DNA from: Bacteroidetes bacterium HGW-Bacteroidetes-8
GTDB lineage: Bacteria > Bacteroidota > Bacteroidia > Bacteroidales > UBA932
NCBI GenBank assembly: GCA_002840895.1
Contig: PHCZ01000001.1
Span: 600,027 to 664,026 of the forward strand
Direction: 5' to 3'
DNA: 64,000 nt
In this document: positions 38,698-49,146 of the stretch, piece by piece
Layout of the letters: every line of letters starts with the position of its first letter
Position numbering within the stretch: position 1 is the first letter of the stretch
Program-made: the position numbers and the translations under genes
Notes under the pieces: model-generated
What the model was told of the DNA's origin: nothing
Seen by the model: only the letters and a program-made list of their open reading frames with translations
The model's database searches: none

Positions 38698-39423
38698 ATG
38701 GAGAAAAGAGCAATTATTGTGGGAGCCTCTTCGGGTATTGGGAAAGGGTTGGCTGAACTGCTTGTTAGAGAGGGGTATATAGTTGGAATTACCGGAAGAA
38801 GAGAGGCTCTGTTAGATGATTTAAAAAATTCTGCACCAAATTCATATATTGTAAAAAGTTTTGACGTTGATGATTACTCAAATATAGAGTCAAATTTAGA
38901 TGAACTTGCAAATCAGCTAGGAGATGTAGAGCTTTTTATTTTAAGTTCAGGAACAGGCAAAAGAAATCCGAAACTTGAGCTCTCTTACGAGGTTATGACT
39001 CTCAGTACAAATGTAACAGGCTTTACTACAGTGATAAACTGGGCTTATAAATATTTTGAGAACAGGGGTGGGGGTTATCTAACTGCTATAACCTCTATTG
39101 CAGGATTTCGCGGATTTTCTATGTCCCCATCATACTCCGCATCTAAATCTTTTCAAATGAGATATATGGAGGCCTTAAGACAAAAATCAAGATGCGATGG
39201 CAATAAAATATCTGTTACAGATATCCGCCCCGGCTTTGTTGACACAGCAATGGGAAACGGAGAGGGGGCATTCTGGATTGCCTCAGTGGAGAAGAGTTCT
39301 GTTCAGATACTATCTGCTATTAGAAGGAGAAAAGGGGTTTCATATATAACTAAAAGATGGTTTTTTGTTGCTCTTTTTTTAAGATTAATTCCAAGTGCTA
39401 TTTTTGAAAGGGTAAGAGTGTAA
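38698..39423 (+). CDS. SDR-family oxidoreductase
   Basis: A 241-residue short-chain dehydrogenase with the NADP-type motif GASSGIG (8-14), a catalytic Ser near 137 (ITSIAG) and Tyr150-x3-Lys154 in SPSYSASKS. A hydrophobic C-terminal stretch (WFFVALFLRLIPSAIF) suggests membrane association. A -7 box lies 28 nt upstream (38662-38669). It precedes the corrinoid operon by 42 nt, where another -7 box occurs, so it may or may not belong to it. Substrate unknown. Confidence 0.85.
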   Translation: MEKRAIIVGASSGIGKGLAELLVREGYIVGITGRREALLDDLKNSAPNSYIVKSFDVDDYSNIESNLDELANQLGDVELFILSSGTGKRNPKLELSYEVMTLSTNVTGFTTVINWAYKYFENRGGGYLTAITSIAGFRGFSMSPSYSASKSFQMRYMEALRQKSRCDGNKISVTDIRPGFVDTAMGNGEGAFWIASVEKSSVQILSAIRRRKGVSYITKRWFFVALFLRLIPSAIFERVRV

Positions 39424-39465: not shown

Positions 39466-40131
39466 ATGGAGAGCTATATAGATAAAATTTCATTTTGTAT
39501 TCAGAGAGGGAAAATTGATTCAAAATCTCCTTATCCACCCGAAATGAAAGGTGAGCCCGGAGCAGACGAACTTACAATGGAGGCACTCAAAAACGGCCTC
39601 GAAGCAAATGATATTCTTACAAAAGCAATGATTCCTGCTATGGGAGTTGTAGGGGAGTTGTTCAAAGAGAAAAAACTTTTCGTTCCACAAGTTCTTATGT
39701 CGGCAAAAGCTATGAGCAGCGCAATGCGGCATCTCAAGCCATATTTCGCATCCGGAGAGTTAAAACAAAAGGGGCTTTTTATTGTTGGAACAGTCTCGGG
39801 AGATCTTCACGATATTGGTAAGAACTTGGTATCAATGATGATAGAGGGATCCGGATGGAGCGTTTTGGATTTAGGCGTAGATGTAAAATCGGAACAATTT
39901 ATTGAGGCAGTAAGAGATAACCCCGGCTCAGTACTTGGTATGTCTGCTCTTCTAACTACTACGATGGAGTCGATGGAGAGATCGGTGAAGGAGATAAAAA
40001 AGATCTATCCGCATCAAAAGATTATTGTTGGGGGTGCTCCTTTAAACAGTGATTTTGCAAAAAGAATCGGAGCAGATTTTTACGCTTCGAACCCTCAATC
40101 TGCTGTTGAATATCTTGGAAACATTATATAA
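39466..40131 (+). CDS. Corrinoid (cobalamin-binding) methyl-transfer protein
   Basis: A 221-residue corrinoid shuttle protein of the MtbC/MttC/MtaC type. Residues about 5-100 form the helical methionine-synthase-like cap, and about 103-221 the Rossmann-like B12-binding domain. The cobalt-ligand motif is GDLHDIG (112-118) with His115 as lower axial ligand, followed by SALLTTTM (160-167) and the nucleotide-tail motif GG (189-190). It has no methyltransferase domain of its own, so it must be loaded by and deliver to separate enzymes. The UroD-type methyltransferase of the same operon is one partner. The methyl donor enzyme is not encoded next to it. Confidence 0.93.
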   Translation: MESYIDKISFCIQRGKIDSKSPYPPEMKGEPGADELTMEALKNGLEANDILTKAMIPAMGVVGELFKEKKLFVPQVLMSAKAMSSAMRHLKPYFASGELKQKGLFIVGTVSGDLHDIGKNLVSMMIEGSGWSVLDLGVDVKSEQFIEAVRDNPGSVLGMSALLTTTMESMERSVKEIKKIYPHQKIIVGGAPLNSDFAKRIGADFYASNPQSAVEYLGNII

Positions 40132-40140
40132 TCTCTTTAT

Positions 40141-41052
40141 ATGAAAGCAGTTCCACTACATCTGGTTTTTGGATTTTTAGGAAGTGGTAAAACTACTTTT
40201 TTAAAAATCATTCTTGACCGATTAGGCTCTAAAAAGAGGATTGGTCTTATTCAGAACGAGTTTAGTCTCTCTCAAATTGAATCAGAGTTTCTAAATCAAA
40301 GTAATATTGAGTTCTCACTTATGGAGGTAAATAGGGGTTCGCTCACCTGTCTATCTCAATCAGAGGACTTTATAACAGACCTTGCAGCTTTTATTAAACG
40401 GGAGAATCCCGAGATACTCTTTATTGAAGCCTCCGGACTGTCAGATCCTATAAAAGTAATTAAGCTTTTTGAATCGCCTATATTGGATAAACTTTTGTAT
40501 CTATCTAAATCATATGTAGTTGTAGATGCTTCCAGGTTTTACCACGAAGTAACTTTTCTAAGAAGCATTCGTAATCAGATTAAGCACGCAGATACGGTTA
40601 TATTGAATAAATACGACAAACTTAACAGACTAGAGGCTCCTGAAGAGATTGTTGAGAGTTACAACTTCAAGAAGATTAAATCTTGGATCTCAGATATTAA
40701 TCCATTTGCAAATATTATCCCAACAACCTACTCCGATATCCCTAAAGATGAGCTTAATCTCATCTATTCTGAGGGTTCCGGTTTGCAGGATAAAAATTAT
40801 TTTATAACCAGAGTATTTACTTCAGATAAAAATTTCAGCAAAGATGAGATATCTGCAATACCTCAACTTTTGGCAGAATGCTTTAAAGCAAAGGGATATA
40901 TACTCAACGATAAAAATGAAAGCCTAGCTCTGAGAGCAAAAAACGGGAATGTTAACATAATACCTTATAATAATACTATTGGAAGGTCTGAGATAATTCT
41001 CACTGGAGAAAATAATAAAATCTCATCTTTAACGAAACATTTCGTTCGATGA
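40141..41052 (+). CDS. G3E-family GTPase (COG0523/CobW-like)
   Basis: A 303-residue P-loop GTPase. Walker A is GFLGSGKTT (11-19), the Walker B/switch region IEASGLSDP (95-103) and the base-specificity motif NKYD (156-159), with a C-terminal CobW-C-like domain (about 215-303). The metal-binding GCxCC motif of COG0523 proteins is lost: the equivalent place reads GSLTC (66-70), keeping one cysteine. Family members insert metals or chaperone metal or cobalamin enzymes. Between the corrinoid protein and its activator, a role in corrinoid loading or reactivation is plausible (inference). It ends overlapping the next ATG by 4 nt. Confidence 0.85.
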   Translation: MKAVPLHLVFGFLGSGKTTFLKIILDRLGSKKRIGLIQNEFSLSQIESEFLNQSNIEFSLMEVNRGSLTCLSQSEDFITDLAAFIKRENPEILFIEASGLSDPIKVIKLFESPILDKLLYLSKSYVVVDASRFYHEVTFLRSIRNQIKHADTVILNKYDKLNRLEAPEEIVESYNFKKIKSWISDINPFANIIPTTYSDIPKDELNLIYSEGSGLQDKNYFITRVFTSDKNFSKDEISAIPQLLAECFKAKGYILNDKNESLALRAKNGNVNIIPYNNTIGRSEIILTGENNKISSLTKHFVR

Positions 41053-41681
41053 GAAATTTTTTCAAATACTCTTTTTTTGTCTCAGATCTTAAGCTGAATA
41101 TCAAGGATTTTCAACTTAAGACCGGCTCCGGATTTGAGGGTGAGATAGATCATCTGGTTAATTCATATTCAACTTTAGAAGCCATCGGAGGGTTTGTAAA
41201 TATTCCGGCAGACGAGATCAATCTGGATATGGGAAGAAGGATTTCGGGCCATTTTAAAAAAGCTGAGACTATATCTATATTCGTAGTAACTTTGGGTAAA
41301 GGATATGTGGATCTCCGGGATAGATACAGAGGCGATCCACTGCTATATTATCTTTCAGATCTCTTAGCATCAGAATATACCGAACAGGCAGCAGATTCTC
41401 TCCATATGAAGATAGCAGCTTACGCAGAATCACACTCTATGAAGTACTCAAACAGATACAGCCCTGGCTACTGTGGATGGAGCACGAAGGATCAGGGCTC
41501 CCTTTTCTCTTACCTGCCTCCAGATCCTTGCGGCATTAAGCTTACTGATTCCTTTTTAATGACACCGGTTAAGTCTATAAGTGGTGCTGTGGCTATTGGC
41601 TCAGCTGTAAGATTTCACAAATACGATTGTAATTTGTGTACAGATGAAAAATGTCTTTACAGAGAAAAATATATTTTATGA
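41049..41681 (+). CDS. Stand-alone methionine-synthase-activation-like protein
   Basis: A 210-residue protein resembling the C-terminal reactivation domain of cobalamin-dependent methionine synthase. The landmark RYSPGYCGW (136-144) replaces MetH RxSPGYPAxP, and LTDSFLMTPVKSISG (165-179) matches the MetH LTESFAMxPxxSVSG segment. A C-terminal tail CNLCTDEKC (194-202) gives CxxCxxxxC, and Cys142 and Cys161 are extra, suggesting an iron-sulfur site that MetH domains lack. The start overlaps the GTPase gene and the stop overlaps the methyltransferase ATG. It probably reduces or reactivates inactive cob(II)alamin on the corrinoid protein, a job RamA-type proteins do elsewhere. The role is inferred. 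Confidence 0.78.
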   Translation: MRNFFKYSFFVSDLKLNIKDFQLKTGSGFEGEIDHLVNSYSTLEAIGGFVNIPADEINLDMGRRISGHFKKAETISIFVVTLGKGYVDLRDRYRGDPLLYYLSDLLASEYTEQAADSLHMKIAAYAESHSMKYSNRYSPGYCGWSTKDQGSLFSYLPPDPCGIKLTDSFLMTPVKSISGAVAIGSAVRFHKYDCNLCTDEKCLYREKYIL

Positions 41682-42823
41682 AAATGACACCCAGAGAGAG
41701 AGTAATTGAGGCAATGTCTTTGCGAAAGCCGGACAGAGTACCTCTGATGTGCCAGTTTAGTATTGGTGCAATGATGCAGCAACTCAAACCCTCACCGGCT
41801 GAGTTCTGGTATGATGGAAGACTTTTTTCTGTTGGACTGGCCGATCTTTGCGAGAGATTCTCGTTTGATGGAATTCTCGTAAGTCTTCACGGACACTCTC
41901 CTCAGTGGAGAGATGAGATAATCTCCATTAAAAAAATTGAAGATGGCAAAGAGGAGGTTGTTTTCAAAGATCGTACGGAGATACACTCCTGGAACGATCT
42001 GCCAATGGTAAAATATACCAATAAGAGAGAGAAAAAAGGTATAGATGAGATAGATTTGTCAAGGGATATTCCCGATGTTATTGATTATATACCTGTATCT
42101 CAGGATCTCTATTTTAGAATTGACCAGCAATATCCATTTGAGATATTCGGATACCTGAGAGAGCTGGTAGGCGACAAATACTCAATTCACGGTGAGATAA
42201 CATCTCCATTCGATTATTTTCTGGATCTTTTAGGTTACGAACAGGGGCTCATATCGTTAATTCTGAATCCGGAAAAAAGCAAAAAAATTCTTGAAAAATT
42301 TACTAATAATATAGCAGATCTCGCAGAAAAAATGTGCGACTGTGGTATTGACGCCATAAAGATATCATCTCCTTTTGCAGGAATGGGATTTATCTCTCCG
42401 GAACACTACTCAGAATTTGTTTTACCATATGAGAGTAAAATAATATCCGGAATCAAAGTAAAAGGTAAGTTCACCTATATTCACACTTGCGGTCATATTG
42501 ATGATCGTCTGGAGCTTATGAGAGATTCAGGCTCATCTGGTCTTGAGTGTCTGGATCCCGAACCGGTAGGAAATGTAGACCTTTCAAATGCCTTTTCAAG
42601 AATTGGAGACTCTATGTTTATAAAAGGTAACATAGACTCTGTCAATACACTTTTGTTTGCAGATGATATAAAAGCATATGAAGATGTAAAGAAAATAATT
42701 GAAACCGGAATGAAGGGTAGGGGCTTTATTCTTAGTACTGCCTGTTCATTAGCTCCTAAAGTATCCTCACAGAGAATTGAGATGTTGCATAGAATGGTGG
42801 AAGATATCGGATATTATAACTAA
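41678..42823 (+). CDS. UroD-family corrinoid methyltransferase (MtaA/CmuA-like)
   Basis: A 381-residue TIM-barrel protein of the uroporphyrinogen decarboxylase superfamily. I start it at the ATG at 41678, overlapping the previous stop (ATGA). An in-frame ATG at 41651 would add nine residues inside the preceding gene. It carries the Zn thiolate-activation set HxC...C as His269 and Cys271 (IHTCGH) and Cys356 (STACSLAPK), found in methylcobamide:CoM methyltransferases and absent from haem-pathway UroD. It should therefore move a methyl group from the corrinoid protein to a thiol, or act on a methylated donor. The thiol acceptor in a bacterium of this group is unknown. Homocysteine and CoM-like thiols are candidates. 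Confidence 0.85.
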   Translation: MKMTPRERVIEAMSLRKPDRVPLMCQFSIGAMMQQLKPSPAEFWYDGRLFSVGLADLCERFSFDGILVSLHGHSPQWRDEIISIKKIEDGKEEVVFKDRTEIHSWNDLPMVKYTNKREKKGIDEIDLSRDIPDVIDYIPVSQDLYFRIDQQYPFEIFGYLRELVGDKYSIHGEITSPFDYFLDLLGYEQGLISLILNPEKSKKILEKFTNNIADLAEKMCDCGIDAIKISSPFAGMGFISPEHYSEFVLPYESKIISGIKVKGKFTYIHTCGHIDDRLELMRDSGSSGLECLDPEPVGNVDLSNAFSRIGDSMFIKGNIDSVNTLLFADDIKAYEDVKKIIETGMKGRGFILSTACSLAPKVSSQRIEMLHRMVEDIGYYN

Positions 42824-48138: not shown

Positions 48139-48168
48139 CAGGAGTAGAATTTATAATTGAATGTAAAT

Positions 48169-49146
48169 ATGAGAGCTAAGCTGTATCTGGCAAACTTACC
48201 AACCCCCATTTCACGTGCAAACAGATTGTCCAACGAACTTGGGGTTAATATCTATTTTAAACGGGATGACCAAACCGGAAGTGAGATATCAGGAAATAAG
48301 ATCAGAAAACTTGAATATGCTTTAAAAGAGGCTCTTGATAAAGGGGCTACAATGGTTATAACAACCGGAGGAATACAATCCAACCACTGCCGTGCAACAA
48401 CAGCCGCTGCTACAATGGTTGGTCTTAAAGTGGTTTTACTTCTTAGAATCAGCGAAGAGCCCAGGATTGAGGGTAATTTTTTTCTTGACAAACTTTTCGG
48501 AGCTGAAATAAGATATTGCTCTCCAGAAGAGTATAGATCATCACGAAATGAGATAATGAAGAGTATTGCAGATGAAAAGGAGTCAATGGGTGAGAGCTGT
48601 TATATTATTCCGGAAGGGGCATCAAATGGTATTGGTTCAATGGGTTACTTTAGAGCAATGGAAGAGATTGTAAAACAGGAAGATGAAATAGGGGTTAAAT
48701 TTGATACCATTGTTGTTGCTGTTGGCTCAGGAGGAACTTACTCCGGGCTTTGTCTTGCAAATAAATATTATGAACTCAATAAAAGAGTTATAGGATTTGC
48801 AGTCTGTGACGATAGTGAATATTTTGTCAATCAAATAGATAATATTAACCGTGAAGCTCTGGTACATTTAGACAAACCTGTTAAAATATCAAAAAATGAT
48901 ATAGAAATTAACGATAAGTACGTAGGTATCGGGTATGCATTAAGTACTCCAGCAGAGCTCGACTTCATTAAATATCTGGCTTCCAAAGAGGCAGTTGTAC
49001 TGGATCCTGTCTACACAGCAAAAGCTATGATCGGCCTATATAATGAAATAAAATCCGACAATTTAAAATCATCGGATAATATACTCTTCATACACACTGG
49101 TGGATTGTTTGGGCTTTTTCCTAAACAAGAACAATTTAATTTTTAG
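48169..49146 (+). CDS. PLP-dependent D-cysteine desulfhydrase/ACC deaminase family enzyme
   Basis: Fold-type II PLP enzyme of 325 residues. I chose the ATG at 48169 (MRAKLYLANLPTPI). The frame is open to a TTG at 48157, but nothing favours that start. The Schiff-base lysine is in SGNKIRKLEYA (near 45-55), TTGGIQSNHCRATT (about 68-81) binds the substrate carboxylate, and GSGGTYSGL binds phosphate. Members deaminate ACC or desulfurate D-cysteine, and many bacterial copies prefer D-cysteine. Sequence alone does not separate these. It is a single gene, 11 nt before the convergent P5C dehydrogenase end. Confidence 0.85.
   Translation: MRAKLYLANLPTPISRANRLSNELGVNIYFKRDDQTGSEISGNKIRKLEYALKEALDKGATMVITTGGIQSNHCRATTAAATMVGLKVVLLLRISEEPRIEGNFFLDKLFGAEIRYCSPEEYRSSRNEIMKSIADEKESMGESCYIIPEGASNGIGSMGYFRAMEEIVKQEDEIGVKFDTIVVAVGSGGTYSGLCLANKYYELNKRVIGFAVCDDSEYFVNQIDNINREALVHLDKPVKISKNDIEINDKYVGIGYALSTPAELDFIKYLASKEAVVLDPVYTAKAMIGLYNEIKSDNLKSSDNILFIHTGGLFGLFPKQEQFNF

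Follow-up and report, generated by a model that had tools for sequence, protein, structure and literature searches.

A corrinoid methyl-transfer cluster with a probable stand-alone MetH-type reactivator, and its second methyltransferase, in a Bacteroidales genome

We analyzed a window of 64,000 nucleotides from Bacteroidetes bacterium HGW-Bacteroidetes-8 (assembly GCA_002840895.1, contig PHCZ01000001.1, positions 600,027 to 664,026), in which four genes encode a corrinoid protein (CORR), a CobW-type GTPase (COBW1), a stand-alone protein resembling the MetH reactivation domain (ACT) and a methyltransferase of the URO-D fold (MTR; such proteins are called UroDs below). As read from the sequence, this cluster comprises CORR, COBW, ACT and MTR out of five component types of a methyl-transfer system, the fifth being a second UroD methyltransferase, MTR2, whose gene adjoins a second COBW gene on a different contig of this genome. 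We propose, at a probability of about one half, that MTR and MTR2 exchange methyl groups via CORR, that ACT repairs CORR and that COBW serves the metal site of MTR2. The overall kind is that of the known corrinoid sulfur/selenium methyltransferase clusters with a different reactivator, and the new part is ACT together with a modular core.

In the proposed relay, the two methyltransferases would load and unload the methyl group on the cobalt of CORR. MTR, with its His-Cys-Cys site, would handle a methyl thioether or a methyl selenide, and MTR2, with its thioredoxin-like tail, the second partner, for which selenium or sulfur in reduced form is the likeliest candidate. Such a substrate class is favored by the metal site of MTR, a link with the selenium protein SelD and the precedents of ClMlp2 and Sdm described below. 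Between cob(I)alamin and zinc-bound thiolates or selenolates, methyl groups can move either way, and the direction is hence not fixed by the sequence; we would favor transfer from methyl-selenium (at MTR2) to a thiol (at MTR), that is selenium salvage, and rank the opposite course only a little lower. Once CORR has been oxidized to Co(II), ACT would bind it in the manner of the MetH activation domain and give it a methyl group from S-adenosylmethionine, its Cys-rich tail probably holding an Fe-S cluster that delivers the electron, and would thus take the part played elsewhere by RACE/RamA, which is driven by ATP. For COBW, the most likely task is the loading or upkeep of the MTR2 metal site.

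Two methyltransferases that occur together

In a family sample of 199 genomes, MTR was found in 14, two of which have only remnants of 200 amino acids (aa) and one of which (G152) has the gene split over two contigs, and MTR2 in 12. Intact MTR (12 genomes, the split gene included) and MTR2 (12 genomes) coincide in 11 of 12 cases each way, the exceptions being genomes that are 72% (G068, with MTR on a 3.6-kb contig) and 76% (G198) complete. The remnants, both C-terminal, lie in the slot of the cluster (L031:9884-10483 and L032:6907-7506) in genomes devoid of MTR2, which is a joint loss of the system. All five genes come together in the order CORR-MTR2-COBW-ACT-MTR in L022, L028, L029 and L030 and as ACT-MTR2-COBW-CORR-MTR in L021; the four-gene form of the window recurs in L020/L035 and L027, and a CORR-ACT-MTR form without COBW in L025, L026 and L033. 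In eight loci (L023 and L053-L059) MTR2 lies apart from the cluster, flanked in all eight by COBW and, on its other side, by a gene that we take from its protein to be sucC-like. With MTR2 inside the five-gene clusters and apart elsewhere, there is thus a second methyltransferase that an earlier, sequence-only reading of the window had not seen. That reading described the four genes as self-contained, which does not hold, since the system also includes MTR2, whose gene is found at another place in the window lineage; the co-occurring methyltransferase that it suggested looking for is MTR2, and the gene order, which it feared might be confined to this strain, is shared by relatives in the same or kindred forms. 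Moreover, as orthologues of the cluster genes occupy the same chromosomal slot in relatives and the ratios of nonsynonymous to synonymous substitution rates (dN/dS) of the four genes are 0.05-0.17 (one relative compared, L020), the cluster is more than a chance neighborhood.

MTR2, the only URO-D protein of the window genome besides MTR, is 454-473 aa long depending on its start and joins a URO-D domain to a C-terminal thioredoxin-like domain with the motif SCAPC. This tail resembles HUIPC_Trx_selen (5.6e-8, under cut-off), and a model of the L022 protein, made from two sequences, has a mean predicted local distance difference test (pLDDT) of 60.6. Selenocysteine in MTR2 was considered, in-frame TGA codons having been listed in G122, G133 and G152, and ruled out: the frames of these genomes (L053, L054 and L057) are open, the TGA of L044 lies upstream of the true start (the query being N-terminally extended) and SCAPC has Cys in L037, L040, L042, L044 and L046.

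Regarding the metal site, MTR carries the motif H-C-C in 17 of 17 aligned rows (METHYLTRANSFERASES), which by the rule given in PMC10418091 points to sulfur or selenium substrates (here and below, statements on published systems refer to the available parts of the cited texts). The sequence-only reading had named MTR an MtaA-type zinc methyltransferase; the HxC...C motif is there, and the label calls for correction, MTR being less MtaA-like than MTR2. Indeed, the match to structure 4ay7 of the Protein Data Bank (PDB) has an E-value of 4e-11 for MTR vs 1.6e-21 for MTR2, and in an IQ-TREE phylogeny of 63 rows a branch with 99/97 support separates the MTR side from CmuA, the RACE-linked UroDs and MTR2. 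Eight rows were removed from this tree beforehand, and it has long branches, with a warning at CmuA; it was built without authentic Mlp, MtaA or OdmB rows, so that names on the CmuA side derive from CmuA, RACE neighbors and profile and PDB scores. FastTree gave weak support near the MTR/MTR2 split (0.46 and 0.94), and two small groups of other UroDs, with L113_Uc and L079_Ua, placed on the MTR side there, moved in IQ-TREE. As the less MtaA-like of the two, MTR may itself be the substrate-side enzyme that was thought to be missing from the cluster; MttB (PF06253) was not found in the window genome, in a search that did not extend to MtbB, MtmB or MtaB models.

SelD exceeds its cut-off in 34 of the 199 family genomes, including all 14 with an MTR hit and all 12 with MTR2, and across the phylum it is found in 66 of 395 genomes (E 1e-60 or better). 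At genus level it occurs in both genera with MTR2 vs 4 of 23 others (p 0.05), and among 24 phylum genomes with ACT only in G000 and G543, the two that have MTR2 (p 0.0036), both statistics ignoring shared ancestry. Another contig of the window genome carries selD in a row with mnmH and a YedF-like gene, the latter scoring slightly below its cut-off (L131:7117-9561); given these neighbors of selD, the organism probably uses selenium at least for 2-selenouridine. The coincidence of MTR2 and SelD hints at a possible methyl exchange between sulfur and selenium; a known enzyme, ClMlp2, moves methyl from methylcobalamin to selenide (PMC10418091).

The probable stand-alone reactivator, its core and the GTPase

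With 42.3 bits against Met_synt_B12 (PF02965, cut-off 25), ACT has the fold of the MetH reactivation domain. Its best Foldseek match is TM0269 (1j6r; E 1.3e-8, TMq 0.69), followed by MetH activation domains, and its model, made from four sequences, has a mean pLDDT of 76.2. TM0269, which reportedly reactivates TM0268, the methionine synthase of Thermotoga, shares with ACT the stand-alone activation fold, but serves MetH, whereas ACT accompanies a separate shuttle and UroDs and carries a CxxCx4C tail that the 1j6r chain seems not long enough to include: past the end of the alignment 10 residues remain in TM0269 vs 29 in ACT, so that TM0269 seems to be without this tail. SPGYC and three tail cysteines are invariant in 11 of 11 ACT sequences, and from the invariant SPGY we infer that ACT would bind S-adenosylmethionine. 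Among further members, CxxCx3-5C occurs in 16 of 16 and PGYC at the first PGY in 15 (not in L113), L123, L127 and L128 standing outside the count.

No RACE-type activase (PF14574) was found in the window genome; as to a corrinoid system with a MetH-type reactivator and without such an activase, the earlier reading is supported. RACE was likewise not found in any of the 15 lineage genomes (several incomplete) or in G543, in a search positive for G339, G391 and the record of L085, and of 20 further ACT genomes in that search one, G441, has it. G295 and G398, which stood outside it, have a RACE-like gene beside ACT, both reactivator types adjoining at L127:1046-3429 (G398) and in L128 (G295). A search of plasmids with ACT gave two weak matches, one annotated metH. 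In Peptoclostridium, the protein encoded at L084:8963-9604 has an ACT-like C-terminal Cys tail, without PGYC and without Pfam or NCBIfam matches, and its gene adjoins those of a corrinoid protein and a UroD.

The ACT profile (A1), searched at E 1e-20 in 395 genomes of the phylum, matched 24, whose neighborhoods were all examined. A search with the MTR2 protein matched 13 of the 395, of which only G000 and G543 were counted as MTR2, the other 11 being partial matches to other UroDs at 27-29% identity. Among the 22 ACT loci without MTR2 (the short stretches of G249 and G398 being scored as misses), 19 have CORR and 14 a stand-alone homocysteine methyltransferase (in G583, PF02574 at 3e-67). Donor genes beside CORR-ACT vary, with several UroD types, MttB (G370, PF06253 at 1e-69) and MTR homologues. 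With G000 set aside, six of the remaining 23 ACT genomes have such homologues, within the ACT cluster in G583 (53% identity) and G295 (38%) and away from it in G291 (54%), G457 (51%) and, more diverged, G398 and G551. Since CORR and ACT recur with homocysteine methyltransferase and with varied donor enzymes, they look like a reusable core. The N-terminal GKIDSKSPYPPEMKGEPGADEL segment of CORR is of a kind present in ACT-linked corrinoid proteins, a related segment occurring in 22 of the 23 listed (the exception is L126; loci such as L114, L115 and L119 were not on the list), in none of three RACE-linked CORRs and not in the CORR of L084.

We tentatively suggest that ACT could represent a third class of corrinoid reactivator, stand-alone, neither ATP-driven like RamA/RACE nor a MetH domain or partner, which would use S-adenosylmethionine and an Fe-S cluster of its own and dock on the SPYPP-type N-terminal segment of CORR. 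With CORR it would form a portable core for varied donors (UroD types, MttB) and acceptors (homocysteine methyltransferase, or MTR2/COBW tied to selenium) in Bacteroidetes-type bacteria. In the open-access literature searched, we found no description of ACT with its Cys tail or of the CORR-ACT-homocysteine-methyltransferase clusters.

Some loci add observations of their own. The stretch L126:6084-10534 (G370) combines an MttB-family gene with ACT, CORR and homocysteine methyltransferase, possibly a methylamine- or betaine-to-methionine cluster. Near other such clusters (L079:7956-9197, L080:2565-3752 and L116:2010-3203) stand genes that, from the starts of their proteins, are presumably mannonate dehydratase-like, which hints that methylated uronic acids may be demethylated. 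The window genome has a second small corrinoid protein (L052:9076-9723, 29% identical to CORR), which is distant from every part of the system and was not linked to it; it precedes two genes and might, at a guess, be a B12-linked sensor.

COBW follows MTR2 and not ACT. Of 15 MTR2 loci, 14 have COBW next to MTR2 (L082 of Subdoligranulum variabile does not), and in none of the 22 ACT loci without MTR2 was it found; in the MTR/MTR2 lineages (12 family loci and G543) it occurs in 9 of 13 loci, G068 having an additional weak piece at a contig edge, and the ACT clusters of G122, G133 and G152 are without it. The Cys metal motif of COG0523 proteins is CxCC. COBW1 has the nucleotide-binding domain and Walker A without this motif, and a single Cys where the MTR2-adjacent homologues have FCxC. 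Despite this reduction, a decaying pseudogene is ruled out by a dN/dS of 0.17 vs L020 (0.15 for COBW2; one genome pair each), which indicates purifying selection. The sequence-only reading held that the four genes alone are complete and that the GTPase aids the reactivator in the place of RamA, and it can invoke the adjacency of the genes and the selection on COBW1. Against it stand the distribution of COBW, the Cys that COBW1 has lost and the published reading of COG0523 genes beside corrinoid methyltransferases as metal supply (PMC2770081), so that we consider it very improbable. Because of its distribution, COBW is probably not the RamA substitute, and because COG0523 proteins are already known beside corrinoid methyltransferases (PMC2770081), a GTPase in this position is not new in itself.

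Direction of the proposed relay, and the cluster in its surroundings

Several observations weigh against the relay as we propose it. MTR2 has F-C-C (F-V-C-G), its metal-site His being replaced in 15 of 15 sequences (the last Cys is unreadable in L054), which weakens an ordinary zinc mechanism for this enzyme, and its thioredoxin-like domain reaches 17.5 bits against Pfam Thioredoxin, below the cut-off of 23.5. The Cys tail of ACT is modelled at pLDDT <50, so the Fe-S cluster is something that we infer. In the genus of the window, SelD is present in 19 of 20 genomes irrespective of MTR2, so that only about three independent clades speak for the selenium link. Finally, G543 pairs MTR2 with a different UroD, in which the third Cys is missing, and donor-looking relatives exist for MTR (G583, G295) as well as, with 85/72 support, for MTR2 (L080_U, which in G237 is the sole UroD observed next to CORR-ACT-homocysteine methyltransferase), so that both could be donors.

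Some of these observations bear on the same relay run in reverse, in which MTR would demethylate a methyl thioether and MTR2 would methylate a thiol, sulfide or selenide that its tail might hold. MTR is most simply a donor in G583 and G295, where its homologues stand with CORR, ACT and homocysteine methyltransferase; the UroD paired with MTR2 in G543 comes from the MTR side of the tree, and MTR2 itself lies on the CmuA/RACE-linked side and nearer to 4ay7. Yet the UroDs closest to MTR2 are seemingly donors in their own clusters, selenide methylation has no obvious benefit and this direction alone does not explain the SelD link; we hold it to be possible and somewhat doubtful.

If both UroDs were donors, methyl-CORR could pass its methyl group to homocysteine, via MetH or a partner not found, in a folate-free route to methionine. 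The 14 ACT loci with a stand-alone homocysteine methyltransferase in the same stretch make this conceivable, but no such gene occurs in the stretches examined of the 13 MTR/MTR2-lineage loci. The window genome (2.9 Mb, 22 contigs, 95.7% complete) encodes a MetH of 1242 aa that has PF02574, B12-binding_2 and activation-like parts in one frame, hence a corrinoid-binding and an activation-like part of its own, and since this is its sole PF02574 match, no stand-alone homocysteine acceptor was found. Such a route is in our view unlikely. The system is also separate from this MetH, service to ordinary methionine synthesis only being what the earlier reading had named as its possible undoing. Exchange between MTR and MTR2 through CORR stays our preferred reading.

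As to the genes themselves (Table 1), the positions and strand given by the sequence-only reading agree with open reading frames and Pfam matches, and the residues and features it pointed out are present, including DLHDIG in CORR, the Cys-rich tail of ACT, H-T-C-G with a later Cys in MTR and ATGA overlaps at 41049-41052 and 41678-41681. Because of the second overlap, MTR most likely starts at ATG 41678, overlapping the ACT stop, rather than at 41651 as in the list of open reading frames.

Table 1. The cluster and the gene preceding it, in window coordinates
Feature	Position	Strand	Matches and motifs
CORR, corrinoid shuttle, 221 aa	39466..40131	+	B12-binding_2 4e-18, B12-binding 4e-24, motif DLHDIG
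COBW1, COG0523/CobW-type GTPase, 303 aa	40141..41052	+	cobW 9e-34, Walker A GFLGSGKTT kept
ACT, stand-alone MetH-type reactivator, 210 aa, C-terminal CxxCx4C tail	41049..41681	+	Met_synt_B12 8e-11
MTR, URO-D-fold methyltransferase, His-Cys-Cys metal site	41678..42823	+	URO-D 6e-35
SDR-family oxidoreductase, directly upstream of CORR	38698..39423	+	

NCBIfam gave matches below cut-off only for the four proteins. No Rfam element, riboswitches included, was found in the window at the gathering threshold, and seven loci gave tRNAs only; a promoter scan (21 sites vs 14.9, sd 4.3, in shuffles) and terminator-like sites (0 vs 2.4) were not used as evidence. The SDR gene also lies 5' of CORR in other loci without adjacent MTR2 (L020/L035, L025, L026, L027 and L033), and none was seen in the five-gene clusters (L021, L022, L028-L030). 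The PhoU_div/PHO4 pair found on the opposite strand 3' of MTR in relatives belongs to phosphate uptake, outside the system, genes of the same size persisting beside the MTR remnant of L031. A D-cysteine desulfhydrase-family enzyme dependent on pyridoxal phosphate is encoded near the operon (48157-49146, TIGR01275 over cut-off); this gene and a nearby SDH_alpha gene (the latter judged by size and place only) are seemingly retained in L031, where the operon was lost, and neither was used as evidence.

Known systems and significance

Among published systems, type 1 mlp clusters (PMC10418091) come close, with UroD methyltransferases, a single-chain corrinoid protein and an activator, the His-Cys-Cys site (as in MTR) and a link to selenium users. 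They differ in their activator, RACE/Ram there and the MetH-type ACT here; moreover, the 99/97 branch parts MTR from CmuA and from RACE-linked UroDs, and MTR2, with a thioredoxin-like tail, has no His at its metal site. Their definition asks for at least two Mlps in the same direction within 2 kb, with an Mlp2 and an Mlp3 in type 1, for Ram/RACE and for a His-Cys-Cys zinc site in the methyltransferases, and admits no tetrahydrofolate methyltransferase within 20 kb (PMC10418091). The window cluster has one UroD, the second being on another contig (two stand together in L021, L022 and L028-L030), and PF14574 is found in 0 of 15 lineage genomes; by activase and by the gene content of the window cluster the system falls outside the definition, yet it may work in a similar way. 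The main text of that source contains no mention of Bacteroid, CobW or GTPase.

SdmABC of Methanococcus (PMC11097638) likewise combines a corrinoid protein with two UroD-type methyltransferases and is tied to the use of methyl selenides, but is archaeal, with no MetH-type activator in the available description. In the split methionine synthase and MtgBCDE systems (PMC5764234, PMC12478193), a corrinoid protein works with a donor methyltransferase and with a homocysteine methyltransferase that is a separate protein, an arrangement that the CORR-ACT-homocysteine-methyltransferase clusters of relatives suggest too; those systems are reactivated by RamA-like and DUF1638 proteins with MtgB (glycine betaine) as donor, whereas the window lineage yielded no homocysteine methyltransferase of this separate kind. 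COG0523 subfamily 13 (PMC2770081) has the same pairing of a CobW-type GTPase, of a family read as metal chaperones, with corrinoid methyltransferase genes, a likeness of gene context, the window copy having a reduced Cys motif.

Corrinoid methyltransferase systems carry methyl groups in the anaerobic turnover of sulfur, selenium and methoxy compounds, and their cobalt, once oxidized, needs repair. The ACT family is little described, and its bacteria for the most part seem to be without the usual repair enzyme. The CORR-ACT-homocysteine-methyltransferase clusters of relatives would make methionine folate-free from methylated compounds. If it is true that ACT repairs without ATP and outside MetH, this would explain how Bacteroidota-type genomes, mostly without detectable RACE, run such systems, and ACT would be a sequence marker for finding them.

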